DNA of 36,231 nt from a bacterium (GTDB taxonomy: Bacteria > Bacteroidota > Ignavibacteria > Kapaibacteriales > Kapaibacteriaceae). Shown here in pieces: positions 4,876 to 34,443 of this stretch (position 1 is its first letter; each line of letters starts with the position of its first letter). Made by a program: the position numbers and the translations under genes. The notes beneath the pieces are model-generated. The model had not been told where the DNA came from. It did not search any database and saw only the letters and a program-made list of their open reading frames with translations. The DNA is taken from the NCBI GenBank assembly GCA_024711065.1, contig JANJTN010000202.1, positions 1 to 36,231 on the forward strand. The letters are read 5' to 3'.

Positions 4876-4924
4876 CCCCATTCCCCATTCCCCATTCCCC
4901 ATTCCCCATTCCCCATTCCCCATT
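4876..4924. repeat. Heptamer array CCCCATT x7
   Basis: Seven exact head-to-tail copies of CCCCATT fill 49 bp of the divergent gap between pntAA and the TonB-receptor gene, about 30 bp upstream of the receptor's -7 box. A heptameric C-rich array resembles the short tandemly repeated repetitive sequences of filamentous cyanobacteria. A copy-number change here could alter promoter spacing. Confidence 0.9.
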
Positions 4925-4957
4925 CCCCACATTTAGGTGTAACTAACTTTTCTTTTG

Positions 4958-7750: not shown

Positions 7751-7753
7751 AGC

Positions 7754-7797
<44 letters not shown>

Positions 7798-7801
7798 TGC
7801 T

Positions 7802-7836
7802 CACTAATCGCTAGACGCTAGGCGCTAGACGCTATG
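7802..7836. repeat. Heptamer array CGCTAGA ending in the ZIP start codon
   Basis: Five consecutive heptamers: CACTAAT, CGCTAGA, CGCTAGG, CGCTAGA, CGCTATG. The last three bases of the final unit are the ATG of the ZIP gene. The same heptamer, on the opposite strand (TAGCGTC), forms the array starting at 24260. Confidence 0.85.
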
Positions 7837-8655
7837 GACTCCATCCTCTCCTTTTTCGAACAAACGGATCCGATCCTGGGTGCGCTTATTGCCACGACGT
7901 TTACGTGGTTGGTCACGGCAGCGGGAGCATCGCTCGTCTTTCTGTTCAAGAACCTCTCGCGGTCATGGCTGGATGGCATGTTGGGGTTCACTGGTGGCGT
8001 GATGATCGCTGCATCGTATTGGTCCCTGCTAGCCCCTTCCATCGAGATGTCGGAAAGCATGGGGCTGCCGGGTTGGCTGCCTCCGGCCATCGGATTTGGT
8101 GCTGGGGCACTATTCATTTATATGCTGGACCAGTTCGTTCCTCACCTGCACATCAATTTCGATCCCAAGCAAGGCGAGGGCGTCCAAACGCAGTGGCGTC
8201 GGACAACGCTGTTGATCCTGGCCATTACGCTGCACAACATTCCGGAGGGTCTGGCCGTAGGCGTGTTGTTTGGTGGCGTTGCCGCCGGCATCCCGGAAGC
8301 CACGATTGGCGGCGCAGTTGCCTTGGCGATCGGCATCGGCCTGCAGAATTTTCCTGAGGGCATCGCCGTGTCGTTCCCCTTGCGACGCCAAGGCGTTAGC
8401 CGACGTCGCAGCTTCTGGTACGGCCAGCTCTCGGCCATCGTCGAACCCATTGCCGGTGTGATCGGTGCTGCCGCCGTGCTCTGGATGCAACCAGTACTCC
8501 CCTACGCCCTAGCCTTCGCCGCCGGCGCCATGATCTATGTGGTGATCGAAGAAGTGGTACCCGAAACACAGCAGGATCGATTCACCGATGTGGCTACGCT
8601 GGGCTTCATCGGCGGCTTCATCGTGATGATGATTTTGGATGTTGCTTTGGGATAA
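7834..8655 (+). CDS. ZIP-family divalent metal transporter
   Basis: A 273-residue inner-membrane protein with about eight hydrophobic segments. Helix 4 has the ZIP signature HNIPEGLAVG (His134, Asn135, Glu138) and helix 5 has QNFPEGIAVS (Asn172, Glu175), the metal-coordinating residues of the family. A cytoplasmic loop between helices 3 and 4 is short. The likely role is import of zinc, iron or manganese from the periplasm, completing a set with the TonB receptor and the metal-sensing regulator. No promoter box is visible in the 83-bp gap, which is all tandem repeat, so it is probably cotranscribed with the regulator. Confidence 0.94.
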   Translation: MDSILSFFEQTDPILGALIATTFTWLVTAAGASLVFLFKNLSRSWLDGMLGFTGGVMIAASYWSLLAPSIEMSESMGLPGWLPPAIGFGAGALFIYMLDQFVPHLHINFDPKQGEGVQTQWRRTTLLILAITLHNIPEGLAVGVLFGGVAAGIPEATIGGAVALAIGIGLQNFPEGIAVSFPLRRQGVSRRRSFWYGQLSAIVEPIAGVIGAAAVLWMQPVLPYALAFAAGAMIYVVIEEVVPETQQDRFTDVATLGFIGGFIVMMILDVALG

Positions 8656-22400: not shown

Positions 22401-22414
22401 CCAATGAGCGCATC

Positions 22415-22486
22415 AGTGCATTCGCACATTAGCACATGAGTGCATTCGCACATGAGTGCATTCGTGCATTCGTGCATGAGTGCATT
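22415..22486. repeat. 8-bp array of AGTGCATT/CGCACATG words
   Basis: Nine consecutive octamers, with AGTGCATT at 22415, 22439, 22455 and 22479 and variants CGCACATT, AGCACATG, CGCACATG, CGTGCATT and CGTGCATG between. It fills most of the 116-bp gap between the convergent czcB and AsnB-labelled genes. GTGCA and TGCAC words allow local pairing. Confidence 0.85.
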
Positions 22487-22516
22487 AATATCCTGGCACC
22501 GCGTTCAGCGGATCGT

Positions 22517-23800: not shown

Positions 23801-23808
23801 GCAATGTA
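23801..23808 (-). promoter_or_regulatory. Possible -7 box TACATTGC for the AsnB-labelled gene
   Basis: On the minus strand TACATTGC ends 6 bases before the ATG at 23794. It fits the shortened form TAnnTTG. The divergent gene's box is only 17 bp away, so the two promoters would overlap. Confidence 0.35.
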
Positions 23809-23825
23809 CGGATACGGAAGGTTCG

Positions 23826-23833
23826 TATTTTGC
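23826..23833 (+). promoter_or_regulatory. Possible -7 box TATTTTGC for the hypothetical gene at 23837
   Basis: TATTTTGC ends three bases before the ATG at 23837, in the same position as the boxes before pdeM and rnr. Confidence 0.35.
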
Positions 23834-23836
23834 GGC

Positions 23837-24262
23837 ATGACCTTGACCCCGCAGGACATTGCCGCCATTGAGACGGTCCTGGGCGCTTCGGAGCGTCCGG
23901 ACGACCGTACCTGGTTCTGGAACCTCCGCGACGACGCCACGAACCGCGTGCTGGCCCTTACCATTTCGGTGGCGGACCTGGGCAACGAACAGCCCTCGAC
24001 CATCGTTTCGGCCCAGACCTATCAGGGCTACGTGGAGTTGCACGACGTGAGCGCCTACTTGTGTATCGAGCCCGACGAAGTGATGTTCATTGCCAAGCAG
24101 CAGGACCGCTTCAGCAGCCTTGTGGTGGGCAGAACCTGCACGTGTTCCCAATTCGGCAACATCCGCGCATCGCTGATCGGCAAGGACCTCACCGAGATCG
24201 ACCCTGCCCTGCTGATGGCCGCCATGCAGCTGTCGTTGGCTGAAGCGATCGTTCTTTCGTAG
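23837..24262 (+). CDS. Hypothetical protein, 141 residues
   Basis: I do not recognise this family. The frame opens at 23804, but the ATG at 23837 directly follows a -7-like box and removes an unlikely N-terminus, so it is preferred. The protein is soluble, acidic, without signal peptide or membrane segment, and has a CTCSQFG pair of cysteines near residue 103. Codon use and base composition match the neighbours, so I believe it is real. It is divergent from the AsnB-labelled gene and upstream of ybeY on the same strand. Its stop codon TAG is the first three bases of a heptamer array. Confidence 0.65.
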   Translation: MTLTPQDIAAIETVLGASERPDDRTWFWNLRDDATNRVLALTISVADLGNEQPSTIVSAQTYQGYVELHDVSAYLCIEPDEVMFIAKQQDRFSSLVVGRTCTCSQFGNIRASLIGKDLTEIDPALLMAAMQLSLAEAIVLS

Positions 24263-24315
24263 CGTCTAGCGTCTAGCGTCTAGCGTCTGGCGTCTGGCGT
24301 CTAGCCGTTAGTGTC
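24260..24315. repeat. Heptamer array TAGCGTC x8 starting in a stop codon
   Basis: Units: TAGCGTC x4, TGGCGTC x2, TAGCCGT, TAGTGTC. The first TAG is the stop codon of the preceding gene. TAGCGTC is the reverse complement of GACGCTA, a rotation of the CGCTAGA unit before the ZIP gene. Confidence 0.9.
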
Positions 24316-24326
24316 CAACCAATAGA

Positions 24327-24424
24327 GACTAAACGCTGAACGCTAAACGCTAAACGCTAAGCCCTAACCGCTAAGCACTAACCGCTAAACGCTATACGCT
24401 AATCGCTAGCCGCTAAACGCTATG
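24327..24424. repeat. Heptamer array CGCTAAA x14 ending in the ybeY start codon
   Basis: Fourteen consecutive heptamers from GACTAAA to CGCTATG, mostly CGCTAAA, CGCTAAG or CGCTAAT, with variants CCCTAAC, CACTAAC and CGCTAGC. The last unit supplies the ATG of ybeY. The unit is nearly the reverse complement of the array at 24260, with an 11-base spacer, so the two arms could fold into a long imperfect hairpin, five or six pairs per seven bases. Confidence 0.9.
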
Positions 24425-24835
24425 CTACGACTGTCTTTGACCAACGCATCCGGGTCGCGCTACCGCGGCAAGGACCTGATCTTGAAGGGGGCTCGTACAG
24501 CTCTTCTCAAGGAAGGTGTGAAGCACGGCGTGATCGACATTGTGCTGGTAGACGACCAGCGGATCAAGAAGCTGCACAAGGAGTGGTTCAACGACGGGAC
24601 CACGACCGACGTGATCACGTTTCCGCTCACGGACGAGCCCCCTATCGAAGCCGAGATCTACATCTCGGTGGACACGGCGAGGAAGAATGCCGAGCGATTC
24701 GGGGTAACGCTGACAAACGAATTGTGCCGATTAGCCGTCCACGGGGCGTTGCACATCGCCGGGTACGACGACGCCACCGATGCGCAGCGGCAACGCATGC
24801 ACGAACTCGAGAATCGGTATCTTAGCAGCCTATGA
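24422..24835 (+). CDS. ybeY: YbeY endoribonuclease, rRNA maturation and ribosome quality control
   Basis: A 137-residue UPF0054 metallo-RNase. The zinc-site motif reads HGALHIAGYDD: His107 and His111 are present, but the third ligand, normally His, is Asp117, a substitution I associate with some Bacteroidota-like sequences. Upstream TDVITFPL is the other conserved block. The enzyme acts in 16S rRNA 3' end processing and 70S quality control. The ATG is supplied by the last unit of a 98-bp heptamer array and no Shine-Dalgarno site or promoter box is visible. Its stop overlaps the smg start by 4 bp. Confidence 0.93.
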   Translation: MLRLSLTNASGSRYRGKDLILKGARTALLKEGVKHGVIDIVLVDDQRIKKLHKEWFNDGTTTDVITFPLTDEPPIEAEIYISVDTARKNAERFGVTLTNELCRLAVHGALHIAGYDDATDAQRQRMHELENRYLSSL

Positions 24836-25299
24836 ACGATCGGTACACCGTCGAACGCATCATGGAGATCATCGCCTACGTGATCGGCGCCCGCGCCGAG
24901 GGTACGCCGTTGGCGAAGATCGACGTCAAGGAGCTTGCCCGCCGTGGCTATACCGATGGCGAGATCTCGGCAGCTCTGAACTGGATCATGGAGCGTGGCA
25001 ACGAAGCCGACGCGGCAGACCAGGACCAATCAGACCGGCAGTCCTTCCGGATCCTGCATGGTCTGGAGGCCGACACCATCTCCCCCGAAGCGTGGGGACT
25101 TCTGCTCTCCTATCACAATCTGGGTTTCCTCAGCAACGAGGACATTGAGCAGATCATCGAGCGCGCCATGGTGATGGGCGGCGACATGCTGGTGGATCTC
25201 GAAGAGATCCGCGCCATTGTAGCCGTCTACGTTTCCCATCTTGCCGAGCGCACCTCCGGAAACCGGCACCTGCTGTCCGGCACCGAAAGCGTGAACTAA
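24832..25299 (+). CDS. smg: Smg/DUF494 family protein
   Basis: A 155-residue acidic protein resembling the DUF494 (Smg) family, all-helical, with ERIMEIIAYVIGARAEG at the N-terminus and the characteristic LEEIRAIVAVYVSHL segment near the C-terminus. Function is unknown; in proteobacteria smg lies near fmt/def and DNA-processing genes. ATG at 24832 overlaps the ybeY stop (ATGA). The tRNA-Arg gene begins 5 bp after its stop, so the tRNA may be cotranscribed. Confidence 0.8.
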   Translation: MNDRYTVERIMEIIAYVIGARAEGTPLAKIDVKELARRGYTDGEISAALNWIMERGNEADAADQDQSDRQSFRILHGLEADTISPEAWGLLLSYHNLGFLSNEDIEQIIERAMVMGGDMLVDLEEIRAIVAVYVSHLAERTSGNRHLLSGTESVN

Positions 25300-25523: not shown

Positions 25524-25552
25524 GTTCTTGTATCTTGGGTCGAAGTCCTCTA

Positions 25553-25562
25553 CTGCTGACGG
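25553..25562 (-). repeat. Third, inverted copy CCGTCAGCAG upstream of the integrase start
   Basis: CTGCTGACGG on the plus strand is the exact reverse complement of CCGTCAGCAG at 34665-34674. It lies 7 bp before the integrase ATG and could allow the recombinase to repress its own gene. A TATCTTGG -7-like box lies at 25531-25538. Confidence 0.55.
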
Positions 25563-25569
25563 TTTTCGC

Positions 25570-26835
25570 ATGCGCCTGTCGTTCTACCTGGATCGACCCA
25601 AATCTCCCCGCACTGTCGTGATGTTGAACGTTGCCCTTCGCGGCAAACGGTTCCGCTTTTCTACGGGCATTTCTCTTGAACCACGGATGTGGGACGATGC
25701 TCGTCAGACCCCTCGGTCATCCGACCCCCACCGGAATCTCCATCGGCGTAAACTGAACGCCATTACGTCGTTCGTCGACGAAGCTTACCACGACTTGCAG
25801 TTCGACGACAAGGCGCGGCTTGTGTCGGACGCTATGCTGACAGACTTTCGCTCTCGCATTCAATCCTTCCTTGATGCTGACGGCAAGGCTGAAGCTCCGC
25901 AGGGATTGCCGGAGCACTTTCAGGAGTTTATCGACACCTACACCTTGCGGACGGTTGGCGGTCAGATCACTGCCAAGCGACCCAGCGACTATTCTCTCAC
26001 GCGCTATCGCAACACCTTGAAAGCGCTCGTGGAATGGTCGAAGGCAGCACGAAAGCCCCTTGACTACGATATCATCAACGAAGACTTCTACACGAGCTTC
26101 TGCACCTGGCTGGGTTCGAGCCGTGGGATCTATGATGCTACGATTTCGAACTACATCAAGACCCTCAAGACCTTCATGAAATGGGCGCGTAAAAAGGGCT
26201 ATCACCAGACCACTGCCTATGAGCAGTTCTTTCGCGATAACCGTAATGGCAAGACGATTGCACTTACATTGGACGAACTGCGTTCCATCCGCGCTTTGGA
26301 CCTGAGCGACAATCCCCGTCTGGCACGAACCCGTGACCACTTTCTGATCCAGTGCTATACCGGTATGCGGTATGGAGACCTTCAGAAACTCGAACCACAC
26401 CACATTGACCTCAAGAACGGCTTAATCCGGTACACCTCACAGAAAACAAGTACTCAGTGTATCGTCCCCATTACGCGACCGCTCCGTAAGATCCTCGCTT
26501 CCTACCCATCCCACATCTTCGAGTTCGCAAGCAGCGTGAAACAGAATGCCTATCTCAAGGAGATCGGCGAACGGATCGACATGGACCAGACCGTATCCAT
26601 CGTGCGGTACCGCACCGGGGACCGTGTTGAAGAATTGAAAAAGCGCAGCGAGTTGCTCACAACGCACGTAGCCCGAAGATCCTTTGTGAGCATCAGCGTG
26701 CGGTTCGGTATTCCCGAGTCCGTGATCCGACTCGTGACCGGCCACTCAGCCAGTACCATGCTGCAGCAGCACTATATCGACCTGGATGAGTCCGCGATCC
26801 ATGACATCGTCGTTTCCGCGTGGGAGCAGTTGTGA
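25570..26835 (+). CDS. Tyrosine recombinase (integrase) of the tRNA-Arg island
   Basis: A 421-residue site-specific recombinase of the Bacteroidota mobile-element type: an arm-binding N-terminal domain (about 1-90), a SAM-like core-binding domain (about 110-215) and the catalytic domain (about 225-421). Catalytic residues are Arg267 (TGMRYGDL), Lys292, His366 and Arg369 (THVARRSF), His392 (TGHSASTM) and Tyr402 (QHYI). The ATG at 25570 is preferred over an upstream start at 25528, because it opens the family-typical N-terminus RLSFYLDRPKSPRTVV. It lies 190 bp from attL and overlaps the next gene by 4 bp (GTGA). Confidence 0.95.
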   Translation: MRLSFYLDRPKSPRTVVMLNVALRGKRFRFSTGISLEPRMWDDARQTPRSSDPHRNLHRRKLNAITSFVDEAYHDLQFDDKARLVSDAMLTDFRSRIQSFLDADGKAEAPQGLPEHFQEFIDTYTLRTVGGQITAKRPSDYSLTRYRNTLKALVEWSKAARKPLDYDIINEDFYTSFCTWLGSSRGIYDATISNYIKTLKTFMKWARKKGYHQTTAYEQFFRDNRNGKTIALTLDELRSIRALDLSDNPRLARTRDHFLIQCYTGMRYGDLQKLEPHHIDLKNGLIRYTSQKTSTQCIVPITRPLRKILASYPSHIFEFASSVKQNAYLKEIGERIDMDQTVSIVRYRTGDRVEELKKRSELLTTHVARRSFVSISVRFGIPESVIRLVTGHSASTMLQQHYIDLDESAIHDIVVSAWEQL

Positions 26836-27842
26836 CACCCACCGACCACTACCTGCTCCACCCTGTCGCTTGGGCTGTATGCCAGGAAGTACTTGATCAA
26901 GACTCCGCCATGATCGCCTCCGGGCGGACGGAGGAACAACGCATCGCCTACCTGTCTGGCGAGATGGAGCGGATCACCTCAGCAGCGGAGATCACCCTAC
27001 GCGAGGCCGCAGCCGACCTCTTCTCTGACTGGGGACTGGCGAATGCCAGCGTAGACACTGCCGAGGTCAGGCGTCGATTCCTAGCGCACGGCGCTAGTCT
27101 CACCTTCCGGGAGTCACGGAATCGAATGCGTCAAATAGGTCTCGAGGACCACACGCTAGCGACTCCCATTCTCGGCCTTGCGTTGTTCGCCATCAGCAAC
27201 CGACCGGACCTAGCTGAGCCCATGCGTCGTCTCTTCGAGCCACGCATCAACACCCTGCTTGCACATCCGAAGGTGGTGCAGGCTGAAGATGGATACACGG
27301 ACATCATGCAGCGCACCGACCTGTTGCCATCCCAGCGAGAGCAACATGCGGTTGCACTCGCACAGCAGGTTCTGTCTGGCATGGTGGGCGATGTGGTCTC
27401 CGCCTTCGCCTTTGCTACCACGGAGTATCGTGATCTTGCCTTGGTTCGGGGAGCACTCCTCGACCTGAGCCTGCTGGACCTTGTGGATGTGGCTGTTGTG
27501 AATGGCCTCCTGGCCGAGCTGCGTCAGCTTCTCCTGGAATCCACCAGCTCTGGCATCATGCTGTACAAGCACATCGTTACCGACATCCTCTCTGGACGCA
27601 TCTCTGCACTCCGTTCACCTGCCTGCGTCCCTCCCGATTCGTCACCGCGGTCCGCACGTGAGGAGCAGACCACCGAGTCCGCGCTGCTCAGTGTCCGGCA
27701 GGTCCTGGAACTCCTCCATATCTCACGGACGACATTGTATCGGTTGGAACAGGATGGCATTCTTATCCCTATCCGAATCGGCCGATCGGTCAGGTACGAC
27801 CCCGAAACGCTCAATCGATACCTGTCTCGTGACCGGAGCTGA
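26832..27842 (+). CDS. Unknown helical protein with C-terminal excisionase-like HTH
   Basis: With the GTG at 26832 (overlapping the integrase stop) it has 336 residues. Residues about 285-332 form a MerR/excisionase-type helix-turn-helix (LSVRQVLELLHISRTTLYRL, then ILIPIRIGRSVRYDPETLNR), the fold of many recombination directionality factors. Residues 1-250 look all-helical and match no family I recognise; a proline/serine-rich linker (near 265-280) joins the two. Translational coupling to the integrase suggests it controls excision or the element's transcription. Excisionases are normally 60-120 residues, so the large N-terminal part is unusual. Confidence 0.75.
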   Translation: MTPTDHYLLHPVAWAVCQEVLDQDSAMIASGRTEEQRIAYLSGEMERITSAAEITLREAAADLFSDWGLANASVDTAEVRRRFLAHGASLTFRESRNRMRQIGLEDHTLATPILGLALFAISNRPDLAEPMRRLFEPRINTLLAHPKVVQAEDGYTDIMQRTDLLPSQREQHAVALAQQVLSGMVGDVVSAFAFATTEYRDLALVRGALLDLSLLDLVDVAVVNGLLAELRQLLLESTSSGIMLYKHIVTDILSGRISALRSPACVPPDSSPRSAREEQTTESALLSVRQVLELLHISRTTLYRLEQDGILIPIRIGRSVRYDPETLNRYLSRDRS

Positions 27843-31805: not shown

Positions 31806-31903
31806 TGGAAATTCCGCGTAATGTGACCACCTCTTTCCGCGCCAAACTGACCACCTGATTCCGCGGCAAATTGACCACCAGATTCCGCGGCAAACTGACC
31901 ACC
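31806..31903. repeat. IS21 left terminal repeats, period 24 bp
   Basis: TGACCACC occurs at 31824, 31848, 31872 and 31896, each within a 24-bp unit that also has TTCCGCG. These are the probable transposase-binding sites. Confidence 0.85.
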
Positions 31904-31986
31904 TGAAACGTGCCCCAAAGTAGGTAGATCGGGCGCTTGTTCAGCACCTTCTATGACTTCACAAATCATAGAATCACCAGCTGAGC

Positions 31987-33570
31987 ATGGCGAACACACC
32001 GATCCCTATGAGCAAACTCAAACACCTGCTGAAACTGCACCATCTGGGCAGGAGTAAGCTCGAGATCAGCACCATCACCGGTGTTTCTCGCAACACCATC
32101 AAGAAGTACCTGGCCGTCCTCTCCGAGCTGGATCTGACCTGGGAAGAGCTCTCGGCCAAGACCGACCATGAACTGGATGTGCTCTTCTGTCAGGAGCCTC
32201 CGTCGGCACCGGACAAACGCCTGGTTGCGCTCCACGCGTTCTTCGAGACGCACGACAAGCGTCTACGGCAGCGCGGCATGACGCTGACGCGTCTCTACGA
32301 GATCTACCGTCGAGACACGGCCGATTGCTTCGGCAAGACCGCCTACTACAAGCACTACCGCATCTGGAAGCAGCGCACGCGGCCATCGATGCGCATTGAG
32401 CACAAGGCGGGAGACAAGGTCTTCGTCGACTATGCCGGAGAACGGCTGGAGTACATCGACCCGACCTCTGGAGAGGTCTGCCGCGCCGAGGTCTTCGTTG
32501 CTATTCTGGGCGCGAGTCAGCTGACCTACGTCGAGGCTACGGCGTCGCAGAAGGTCGAGGACTTCATCTCCAGCTGCCAGAATGCCCTGCACTTCTTTGG
32601 CGGGGCACCGACGGCCATCGTTACGGACAACCTGAAGTCGGCGGTGATCAAGTCGCATCGCTACGAGCCGAAGCTCAATGAGAACTTCGAGGCCTTCGCC
32701 GACCACTACGGGATGGCTGTGCTGCCGGCCCGCGCCTACAAACCCAAGGACAAGGCGCTGGTGGAGGGAGCCGTCAAGATCACCTACACCAAGATCTATG
32801 CAGCTCTACCGCGTCGGCTCCCCGTGGGCCTGGAGATGCTCAACGACCGCATCGCCGAGCTGCTGAAGACCTACAACACGGGCCAGTTCTCCGGTCGGGA
32901 CTACTCCCGCCTGGAGCAGTTCCGCGAGCTGGAAGAAGCCTGTCTGCAGCCGCTGCCGCAGAACCGCTTTGAACTCCGACGCTCCCTGCAGGCTTCCGTT
33001 GCCAAGAACGGCCACATCAACCTGGGGCCGGACAAGCACTACTACTCGGTGCCGTATGCCTACATCGGCAAGAAGGTCCGCGTCTTCTACAACAACGAGC
33101 AGGTGGAGATCTTCTACCGCCACCAGCCCATTGCCAGTCACAAACGGGTCCGGACGCCCTATCAGTACACCACCGATCAGGACCACCTGGCCAGTCACCA
33201 CCAGGTGATCAGCGAGTGGTCGCCGGAGTACTTCCGGGAGCGTGCCCGCGCCATCAGCCCCGAGGTCGAACACTACATCAGCATGGTCCTGCTGCGCAAG
33301 CAGCATCCGGAGCAGGCGTTCAAGTCGTGTCAAGGCATCCTGGCCTTTGCACGCCGCCTCGGACCGCAGCGCTTGATCAAGGCATGCCGCCGGGCTGACT
33401 CCTTTGGCCTGTACCACTACAAAGCGATCGAGGAGATCCTCAAGAAGGGTCTCGACCTGCAGGAGGACGCCTCCGAGCCGCGGTCAATGCCTGCCCACAA
33501 CAACATCCGAGGCAAGGACTACTACGCCTCGGTGGATTCTTCACTATCACAGGAGCAGTCCCATGACTGA
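31987..33570 (+). CDS. istA: IS21 transposase IstA
   Basis: A 527-residue transposase: N-terminal helix-turn-helix region (residues 8-45, LGRSKLEISTITGVSRNTIK), rve integrase core with Asp148 (KVFVDYAGE), Asp214 (IVTDNLKSAV) and Glu260 (KDKALVEGAVK), and a Mu-like beta-barrel region followed by a basic C-terminus. The DDE spacing (45 residues between the second Asp and Glu) fits IS21. It acts with the IstB ATPase at the terminal repeats. The frame is intact and overlaps istB by 8 bp. Confidence 0.96.
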   Translation: MANTPIPMSKLKHLLKLHHLGRSKLEISTITGVSRNTIKKYLAVLSELDLTWEELSAKTDHELDVLFCQEPPSAPDKRLVALHAFFETHDKRLRQRGMTLTRLYEIYRRDTADCFGKTAYYKHYRIWKQRTRPSMRIEHKAGDKVFVDYAGERLEYIDPTSGEVCRAEVFVAILGASQLTYVEATASQKVEDFISSCQNALHFFGGAPTAIVTDNLKSAVIKSHRYEPKLNENFEAFADHYGMAVLPARAYKPKDKALVEGAVKITYTKIYAALPRRLPVGLEMLNDRIAELLKTYNTGQFSGRDYSRLEQFRELEEACLQPLPQNRFELRRSLQASVAKNGHINLGPDKHYYSVPYAYIGKKVRVFYNNEQVEIFYRHQPIASHKRVRTPYQYTTDQDHLASHHQVISEWSPEYFRERARAISPEVEHYISMVLLRKQHPEQAFKSCQGILAFARRLGPQRLIKACRRADSFGLYHYKAIEEILKKGLDLQEDASEPRSMPAHNNIRGKDYYASVDSSLSQEQSHD

Positions 33571-34333
33571 ACCACCAATCGAGACAACCCTTGAACGCCT
33601 CAAGCAGATGAAGCTCACCGGCATGGCCCGAGCGCTGCAGGCCAGCCAGGCTGCCACGGCCGACCAGCATTTGAGTGCCGATGAACTCGTCGAAGCGCTC
33701 GTCACCGCCGAGTGGGATGAGCGCACCAACCGGCGCCAGTCGCGCTTCATCAAGAACGCCCGGTTCCGCTACCGTGCCATGGTCGAGGAGATCAGCTTTG
33801 ACGGCCAGCGCGAGGTCTTCCGCAATCAGATCCTGCGTCTGGCGGCGTGCCACTTCATTACCAAGCGCGAGAACGTCCTGATCACCGGCAGCACTGGCCT
33901 GGGCAAGAGCTACATCGCCTCAGCGATCGGCCACCAGGCCTGTATCCTCGGCTACAAGGTGCTCTACGAGCACAGCAACAAGCTCTTTGCCCGGTTGAAA
34001 ATGGCTAAGGCCGACGGCTCCTACCTCCGCGAACTCCGAAAGATGGAGCGGCAAGACCTGTTGATCATCGACGACTTCGGCATTCAGCCGCTCGACTCAC
34101 AGAGCCGGGCGATCCTCATGGAGATCATCGAAGACCGCCACGGCAAGACCTCAACCATGTTCACCGCCCAGGCCCCCGTCGAGGTATGGCACGAAGTGAT
34201 CGGTGAACAGACCATTGCTGATGCTATCTTGGACCGCATCATACACGATGCGCACCGGCTTGAACTCGTCGGTGACTCGTTGAGGAAACGTAGAATGGCC
34301 AAGGGCAAGAAGACTGACGATACCACGAACTAA
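33563..34333 (+). CDS. istB: IS21 helper ATPase IstB
   Basis: A 256-residue AAA+ ATPase related to DnaC. Walker A is GSTGLGKS (109-116) and Walker B LLIIDDFG with Asp170 and Asp171. It helps IstA assemble and choose the target. I chose the ATG at 33563, preceded by AGGAG seven bases away and overlapping the istA stop, rather than the longer frame from 33404, which only shadows istA. Confidence 0.96.
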   Translation: MTEPPIETTLERLKQMKLTGMARALQASQAATADQHLSADELVEALVTAEWDERTNRRQSRFIKNARFRYRAMVEEISFDGQREVFRNQILRLAACHFITKRENVLITGSTGLGKSYIASAIGHQACILGYKVLYEHSNKLFARLKMAKADGSYLRELRKMERQDLLIIDDFGIQPLDSQSRAILMEIIEDRHGKTSTMFTAQAPVEVWHEVIGEQTIADAILDRIIHDAHRLELVGDSLRKRRMAKGKKTDDTTN

Positions 34334-34393: not shown

Positions 34394-34443
34394 GGTGGTC
34401 AGTTTGACGCGGAATCAGGTGGTCAGTTTGTGCGGAATATCCA
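34394..34443. repeat. IS21 right terminal repeats
   Basis: GGTGGTCA occurs at 34394 and 34418, again 24 bp apart and inverted relative to the left boxes, followed by the terminal GCGGAATATCCA. Confidence 0.85.

Follow-up and report, generated by a model that had tools for sequence, protein, structure and literature searches.

The stop-to-start heptamer arrays before ybeY in a Kapaibacteriaceae genome: probably the gene-less form of paired inverted arrays that are dispersed in this lineage and akin to those around 23S rRNA IVP genes

Heptanucleotide STRR repeats are classically a feature of cyanobacteria, and Mazel et al. are said to have described in 1990 such tandem heptanucleotides dispersed in the intergenic DNA of Calothrix, Nostoc and Anabaena. 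As generally understood, STRR differ in their units from the arrays treated here, and pairing is not among their defining features. In Xanthomonas, according to a 2015 report (PMC4692102), GGGAATC heptamer arrays are dispersed in intergenic DNA with 70 and 75 paired convergent (inverted) cases per genome, lie near the 3′ end of the upstream ORF and are scarce between divergent genes, while some positions of the unit are conserved and others variable and the array lengths vary among close species. The TAACTGA heptamers of Beggiatoaceae, Cyanobacteria and some Bacteroidetes are intergenic and tandem, often beside start codons (MacGregor 2015, PMC4679880); the stop codon in their unit limits gene overlap, and close relatives can be without the repeats in the same gene order. 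Moreover, in the IVS of the Coxiella 23S rRNA the S23p ORF lies within an inverted-repeat hairpin, and two or three tandem heptamers, in a strain-dependent copy number, stand just before this ORF (PMC4990558).

The window, that is the whole 36,231-nt stretch of DNA analysed here, belongs to contig C9 of a Kapaibacteriaceae genome (G000; 2.56 Mb in 216 contigs) and has a gap before ybeY that consists of heptamer repeats. The features concerned are as follows.

7809-7838, + strand: second member of the CGCTARN family within the window; its terminal CGCTATG likewise coincides with a gene start (7834)
23804-24262, + strand: upstream gene, 152 amino acids, no Pfam or NCBIfam match, adjoining ybeY in relatives too
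24257-24426, + strand: RNA hairpin predicted by folding, the stop region paired with the start region
24260-24315, + strand: left arm, eight TAGCGTC-type heptamers (sequence reading, TRF)
24316-24328, no strand: spacer of 13 nt, the loop region of the hairpin (sequence reading, RNA folding)
24329-24424, + strand: right arm, 13.7 CTAAACG/CGCTAAA-type heptamers, nearly the left arm in reverse complement
24422-24835, + strand: ybeY (rRNA maturation RNase; PF02130, E 1.2e-28; TIGR00043 above cut-off)
24832-25299, + strand: DUF494 (smg-like) gene, overlapping the end of ybeY, with the same order in the sister genome

The TAG stop of the 152-aa ORF (24260-24262) is the first TAG of the left array, which is made up of four TAGCGTC, two TGGCGTC, one TAGCCGT and one TAGTGTC; the right arm has 13 full heptamers followed by CTATG, and its terminal CGCTATG supplies the ATG of ybeY (24422-24424). 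TRF detects both arrays (scores 78 and 111). The sequence-only reading that drew attention to this gap was right that the repeats extend from the stop codon to the ybeY ATG (24260-24424), and also in its other details, save that its 11-base spacer is in fact 13 nt long. It had also reserved the case of a different ybeY start, which is not borne out: an in-frame stop lies 15 nt upstream of the ATG with no intervening start codon, and the YbeY of the sister genome (MLTVTLTNASG) starts at the same place. Neither an intrinsic terminator (stem plus T-tract; 0 sites within 24100-24600) nor a sigma-70-type promoter was found in the ybeY gap. The protein encoded at 23804-24262, with the motif EPDEVMFI, is kept beside ybeY across the order.

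Taken alone, the ybeY site adds a new case to a known kind of heptamer arrays, that of Xanthomonas and of Beggiatoaceae and Bacteroidetes. Like the Xanthomonas arrays (PMC4692102), those of G000 are tandem 7-nt repeats, dispersed and mostly intergenic, paired in convergent orientation and nearer to gene 3′ ends; unlike the G-rich, quadruplex-forming unit given there, the G000 unit is CGCTARN without G-tracts, and that source, as consulted here, describes no S23/IVP link for the GGGAATC arrays. With the TAACTGA repeats (PMC4679880) the arrays share intergenic tandem heptamers, a stop codon in the unit and absence from a relative with the same gene order. However, the unit TAGCGTC/CGCTARN, tandem in several copies and free of a G-tract, differs from TAACTGA, and the TAACTGA repeats have one fixed unit in mostly short arrays that are almost always direct, not paired and inverted as in G000. 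The ybeY arms resemble an IVS in that they are inverted and predicted to fold into a stem, whereas IVS sit in rRNA genes, carry an ORF and are excised by RNase III, and the ybeY copy is ORF-less and lies between protein genes.

The sequence-only reading had suggested that the array is special to ybeY, which is not the case, as the same family, CGCTA plus two variable bases, is dispersed across G000 and was met at 27 sites in the sampled stretches on which our array censuses rest. Exact three-unit matches number 177 genome-wide against 1 for a reversed-pattern control (215 against 2 controls when up to three mismatches are allowed), and the ybeY array is therefore beyond chance. In the core CGCTA the majority base holds 88-97% at each position, while at the last two adjacent positions it holds 55% and 61%. 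In addition, several unrelated heptamer and octamer units coexist in G000.

No exact three-unit match of the CGCTA family was found in 59 relatives drawn from the genus, family and order, five of them of the same genus, and only two others have any among 294 genomes drawn more widely from the class. In one stretch from another family of the class (L162 in G122:C88, 1500-1694) 11 exact CGCTAGA units run straight into about 16 TAACTCA-type heptamers, and no IVP gene was recognised beside them in the stretch examined. The closest relative, the sister genome G003 (YbeY 74% identical), has the three genes in the same order as G000, with a repeat-free gap of 12 nt, TAG-CGTGGTGATCGT-ATG, which already contains TAGCGT; thus a relative without the repeats and with unchanged gene layout, the counter-case that the sequence-only reading had named, does exist. 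Eight other gaps with arrays in G000, four of them with CGCTA-family arrays, could be matched in G003, where they are shorter and free of such arrays. Because the sister gap is repeat-free, the array is not needed for the gene order, and the comparison is most simply read as a recent gain at ybeY in the G000 lineage. We counted 19 arrays of period 7 in 242 kb of G000 (window included), as well as 17 in 275 kb of G006 and 2 in 363 kb of G002; in 799 kb of G003 and 400 kb of G004 there are none. In the array-rich G006 the ybeY gap holds an octamer-like repeat, and since this is unrelated to the G000 arrays, the gap has apparently been filled twice independently, in G000 and in G006.

The arrays follow rules of layout. 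Paired arms are present at 7 of the 27 sampled sites, ybeY included, and in all seven the CGCTA arm comes after the TAGCG arm; locus L110 is an eighth pair in this order. According to a simple codon-usage gene caller, whose individual starts may be wrong, array edges lie within 20 nt of the gene in 24 of 32 cases facing a 3′ end but in 3 of 17 facing a start (p 0.0002), and the close 3′-end edges read TAGCGTY in the sense of the gene in 20 of 24 cases (20 versus 4, p 0.0015). Arrays are also enriched between convergent genes by the same calls (9/22 gaps versus 14/120, p 0.002). Edge distances of −3, −10 and −17, where the stop codon is the TAG of the first, second or third unit, were seen 8, 2 and 6 times, respectively. 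With TAG in the unit and a unit length of 7, which 3 does not divide, any gene that extends into an array meets an in-frame stop in the first, second or third unit, so the fit to the stop codon at ybeY is unsurprising, and we rejected a meaning of the coincidence of array start and stop codon because stops occur in any of these three units. The order of unit variants is not mirrored between the two arms (shared runs sum to 17; null mean 16.8), so neither arm is a recent copy of the other, and mirror copying of one arm by foldback synthesis was rejected as well, the order being shared no more than by chance. Among IMG/VR contigs, TAGCGTY arrays are short and stand in varied contexts; in one of them (L155) TTTAGCG units are followed about 120 nt on by CGCTAAA units, which is the usual order.

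Inverted arrays of this type also surround a particular gene family, PF05635 (23S_rRNA_IVP, alias S23 protein or four helix bundle protein). On contig C6 (779-1251) inverted CTCGTAG and CTACGAG arrays enclose a PF05635 gene, and the sister genome has neither the arrays nor the gene in this gap. All four PF05635 matches of G000 (contigs C6, C174, C183 and C211) are enclosed by inverted 7-8-mer arrays whose unit differs from gene to gene, and several PF05635 genes in G002 and G006 are likewise enclosed, while 0 of 57 other short genes of G000 have inverted array flanks. We then compared the two 250-nt flanks of each IVP locus and counted inverted matches that reached 32 bits, with blocks displaced by 700-1000 nt as controls. 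Such a match is present at 15 of 39 loci in genomes of the class, 13 of 16 on plasmids and 31 of 44 on IMG/VR contigs, compared with 0/148, 1/64 and 0/155 displaced controls, respectively; pooled, this gives 59/99 IVP loci versus 1/367 controls, where the IVP counts are not all independent owing to near-duplicates in the viral collection (e.g. L272, L275 and L276) and the displaced blocks often fall in coding sequence. Under a stricter control on plasmids with annotated gene ends, 9 of 16 IVP genes and 1 of 25 neighbouring genes have the match (p 0.0003). Period 7 was found in 48 of the 59 matched arms, and left arms have TAG over CTA (23 versus 4), the same polarity as in the ybeY pair. The plasmid PF05635 matches are mostly from cyanobacteria (Calothrix, Nostoc and Anabaena dominate), plus Riemerella, Azospirillum and Gemmatirosa. 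Some four-helix-bundle genes with heptamer-like repeats in their flanks lie inside cas operons of cyanobacterial plasmids (L329 1483-1851, L331 1489-1848 and L339 1483-1839), in the arrangements cas6/gene/cas4 and cas10/gene/cmr3. Our literature search, mainly of non-subscription papers, found nothing on an IVP-heptamer link beyond Coxiella (PMC4990558), though one may be reported elsewhere, and nothing on repeats in Kapabacteria. The association of PF05635 genes with inverted heptamer arrays thus seems to be new.

Considering these results together, we think it probable that the repeats before ybeY are one of many dispersed members of a family of paired inverted heptamer arrays specific to this lineage, and that the paired arrays and the IVP genes form one kind of element, of which the ybeY copy is a gene-less form. 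Such an element would be a selfish or tolerated hairpin, comparable to the rRNA IVS with the S23p ORF in the hairpin loop, and its arrays would then drift in length in 7-nt steps by slippage or recombination. The insertion could be tolerated before ybeY, as the array offers stop codons in every frame, the transcript would remain continuous and ybeY would need no Shine-Dalgarno site. The occurrence at many intergenic sites, the absence from relatives, the repeat-free sister gap, the fixed arm order, the edges hugging gene 3′ ends, the predicted hairpins and the inverted flanks of IVP loci favour this explanation, as do the tandem heptamers before the S23p ORF of the Coxiella IVS (PMC4990558). 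Against it, there is no PF05635 gene at ybeY, whose spacer is only 13 nt, or elsewhere on contig C9, so the link there is by analogy, and by this analogy the site is probably the form without an IVP gene. Across five genomes the number of IVP genes follows array density only roughly: in G004 and G002 a single IVP gene goes with no or few arrays. The plasmid result is weaker when annotated gene ends are used (9/16), no enzyme of mobility was identified, and the unmirrored order of unit variants also counts against it. The arrays might, instead, be a landing site of IVP genes and not part of one element.

As a more tentative extension, to which we give less credence than doubt, S23/IVP genes and inverted heptamer arrays could constitute one widespread class of selfish hairpin elements in bacteria, in which the protein or its RNA would drive the formation or spread of the arrays and gene-less arrays such as that at ybeY would be non-autonomous offspring. 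If true, this would explain some of the bias towards heptamers that has long been known for simple repeats of bacteria. Both the heptamer repeats and the S23/IVP family have been without explanation for decades, and the statistical link makes both of them testable.

The strongest competitor, which we regard as a serious if rather unlikely alternative, is that these are plain simple-sequence repeats: polymerase slippage favouring 7-nt units would expand local seeds in tolerated intergenic sites, with no element and no role for IVP. In many bacteria the long simple repeats are most often heptamers, and slippage has been proposed for these (Mrazek 2007, as related in PMC4679880 and in PMC4692102); the TAGCGT at the ybeY site of the sister genome is a possible seed; the coexistence of unrelated heptamer and octamer units in G000, the unrelated repeat in the ybeY gap of G006 and the fact that the arms are not mirrored copies would fit slippage as well. 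However, one and the same CGCTA core stands at 27 unrelated sites of the sample and is lacking in relatives, and variation confined to two adjacent unit positions (55/61% against 88-97%) is unlike random decay. Moreover, neither paired inverted arms in a fixed order nor the excess around PF05635 genes would follow from slippage alone.

By prediction, the ybeY gap forms a far stronger hairpin than shuffled sequences do. Its RNA is predicted to fold with −71.0 kcal/mol (z −6.6), 0 of 200 shuffles being equally good, so the hairpin potential claimed from the sequence is borne out as a prediction; folded as DNA the gap gives z −3.0, and four other array pairs give hairpin z from −4.8 to −11.5. A regulatory hairpin specific to ybeY, which would hide the start codon and couple ybeY to the upstream gene, is nevertheless very improbable. 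The predicted fold does pair the stop-codon region with the start-codon region, but the sister and other relatives have this gene order without the array, the family also stands beside unrelated genes and between convergent genes, where there is no start codon to act on, and the other start-abutting array of the window shows no hairpin excess (z +1.6). The earlier remark that the ribosome-binding region of ybeY is pure repeat is true and carries little weight, as SD-like motifs precede 20% of G000 genes, hardly above an in-gene control of 16%. Because G000 hardly uses such motifs, no Shine-Dalgarno site is lost at ybeY, and we rejected SD loss as an effect on this gene. In a gene-less copy of a dispersed element, too, the modelled hairpin might tie ybeY translation to the arrival of ribosomes at the stop codon of the 152-aa gene. 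The ybeY case teaches that a striking stop-to-start array can be a recent, probably tolerated insertion.

REP sequences are single palindromes of 20-40 nt, and that the arrays are REP-like sequences mobilised by a REP-associated (Y1) transposase is hardly credible, the units being 7-nt tandem arrays and not single palindromes. PF01797 (Y1 transposase) has only two matches in G000, L068 (G000:C8, 2047-2271) and L346 (G000:C119), and both contigs also have CGCTA arrays; yet the match lies about 1.6 kb from the array on C8 and about 6 kb on C119, and PF01797 has a match in every genome searched, including the array-free sister. An origin by reverse transcriptase (retroelement or DGR) was rejected, no PF00078 (RVT_1) match being found in G000. 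Least believable is a metagenome assembly artefact, since, though several contigs end in such arrays and assembly there must be difficult, the ybeY array lies inside a 36-kb contig between conserved flanking genes in the sister's order, and the units are degenerate and distinct in arrays at many independent sites.

Several further repeats occur in the window. At 7752-7838 a GCTGTT array gives way to CGCTAGA units, whose last letters, CGCTATGG, reach the start of a ZupT-like gene (7834), which lies behind an MntR-like regulator, and here a second start codon is formed at an array end. A second heptamer family, CCCCATT (GGGGAAT on the other strand), is present in 7.7 copies at 4876-4929 and can be likened to the G-rich heptamers known from Xanthomonas and Nostoc; an inverted pair of this family, GAATGGG..CCCCATT, with an 18-nt spacer, lies on contig C18 (L077, 484-572). 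The repeat at 22404-22487 (ATGAGCGCATTAGTGCATTCGCAC), with periods of 24 and 8 nt, resembles the octamer arrays around the PF05635 gene of contig C183 (L180). Directly after ybeY and the DUF494 gene, a gene for a tyrosine integrase with Arm-DNA-bind_5 and a helix-turn-helix gene occupy 25528-27842, and the G+C content drops in parts of the window from about 29 kb on, which may together point to an integrated element. Finally, a 24-nt repeat (TGACCACCTGATTCCGCGGCAAAC) in 3.5 copies at 31824-31906 and an inverted version of it in 1.9 copies at 34394-34438, about 2.5 kb away, enclose two ORFs (31987-33570 and 33404-34333).
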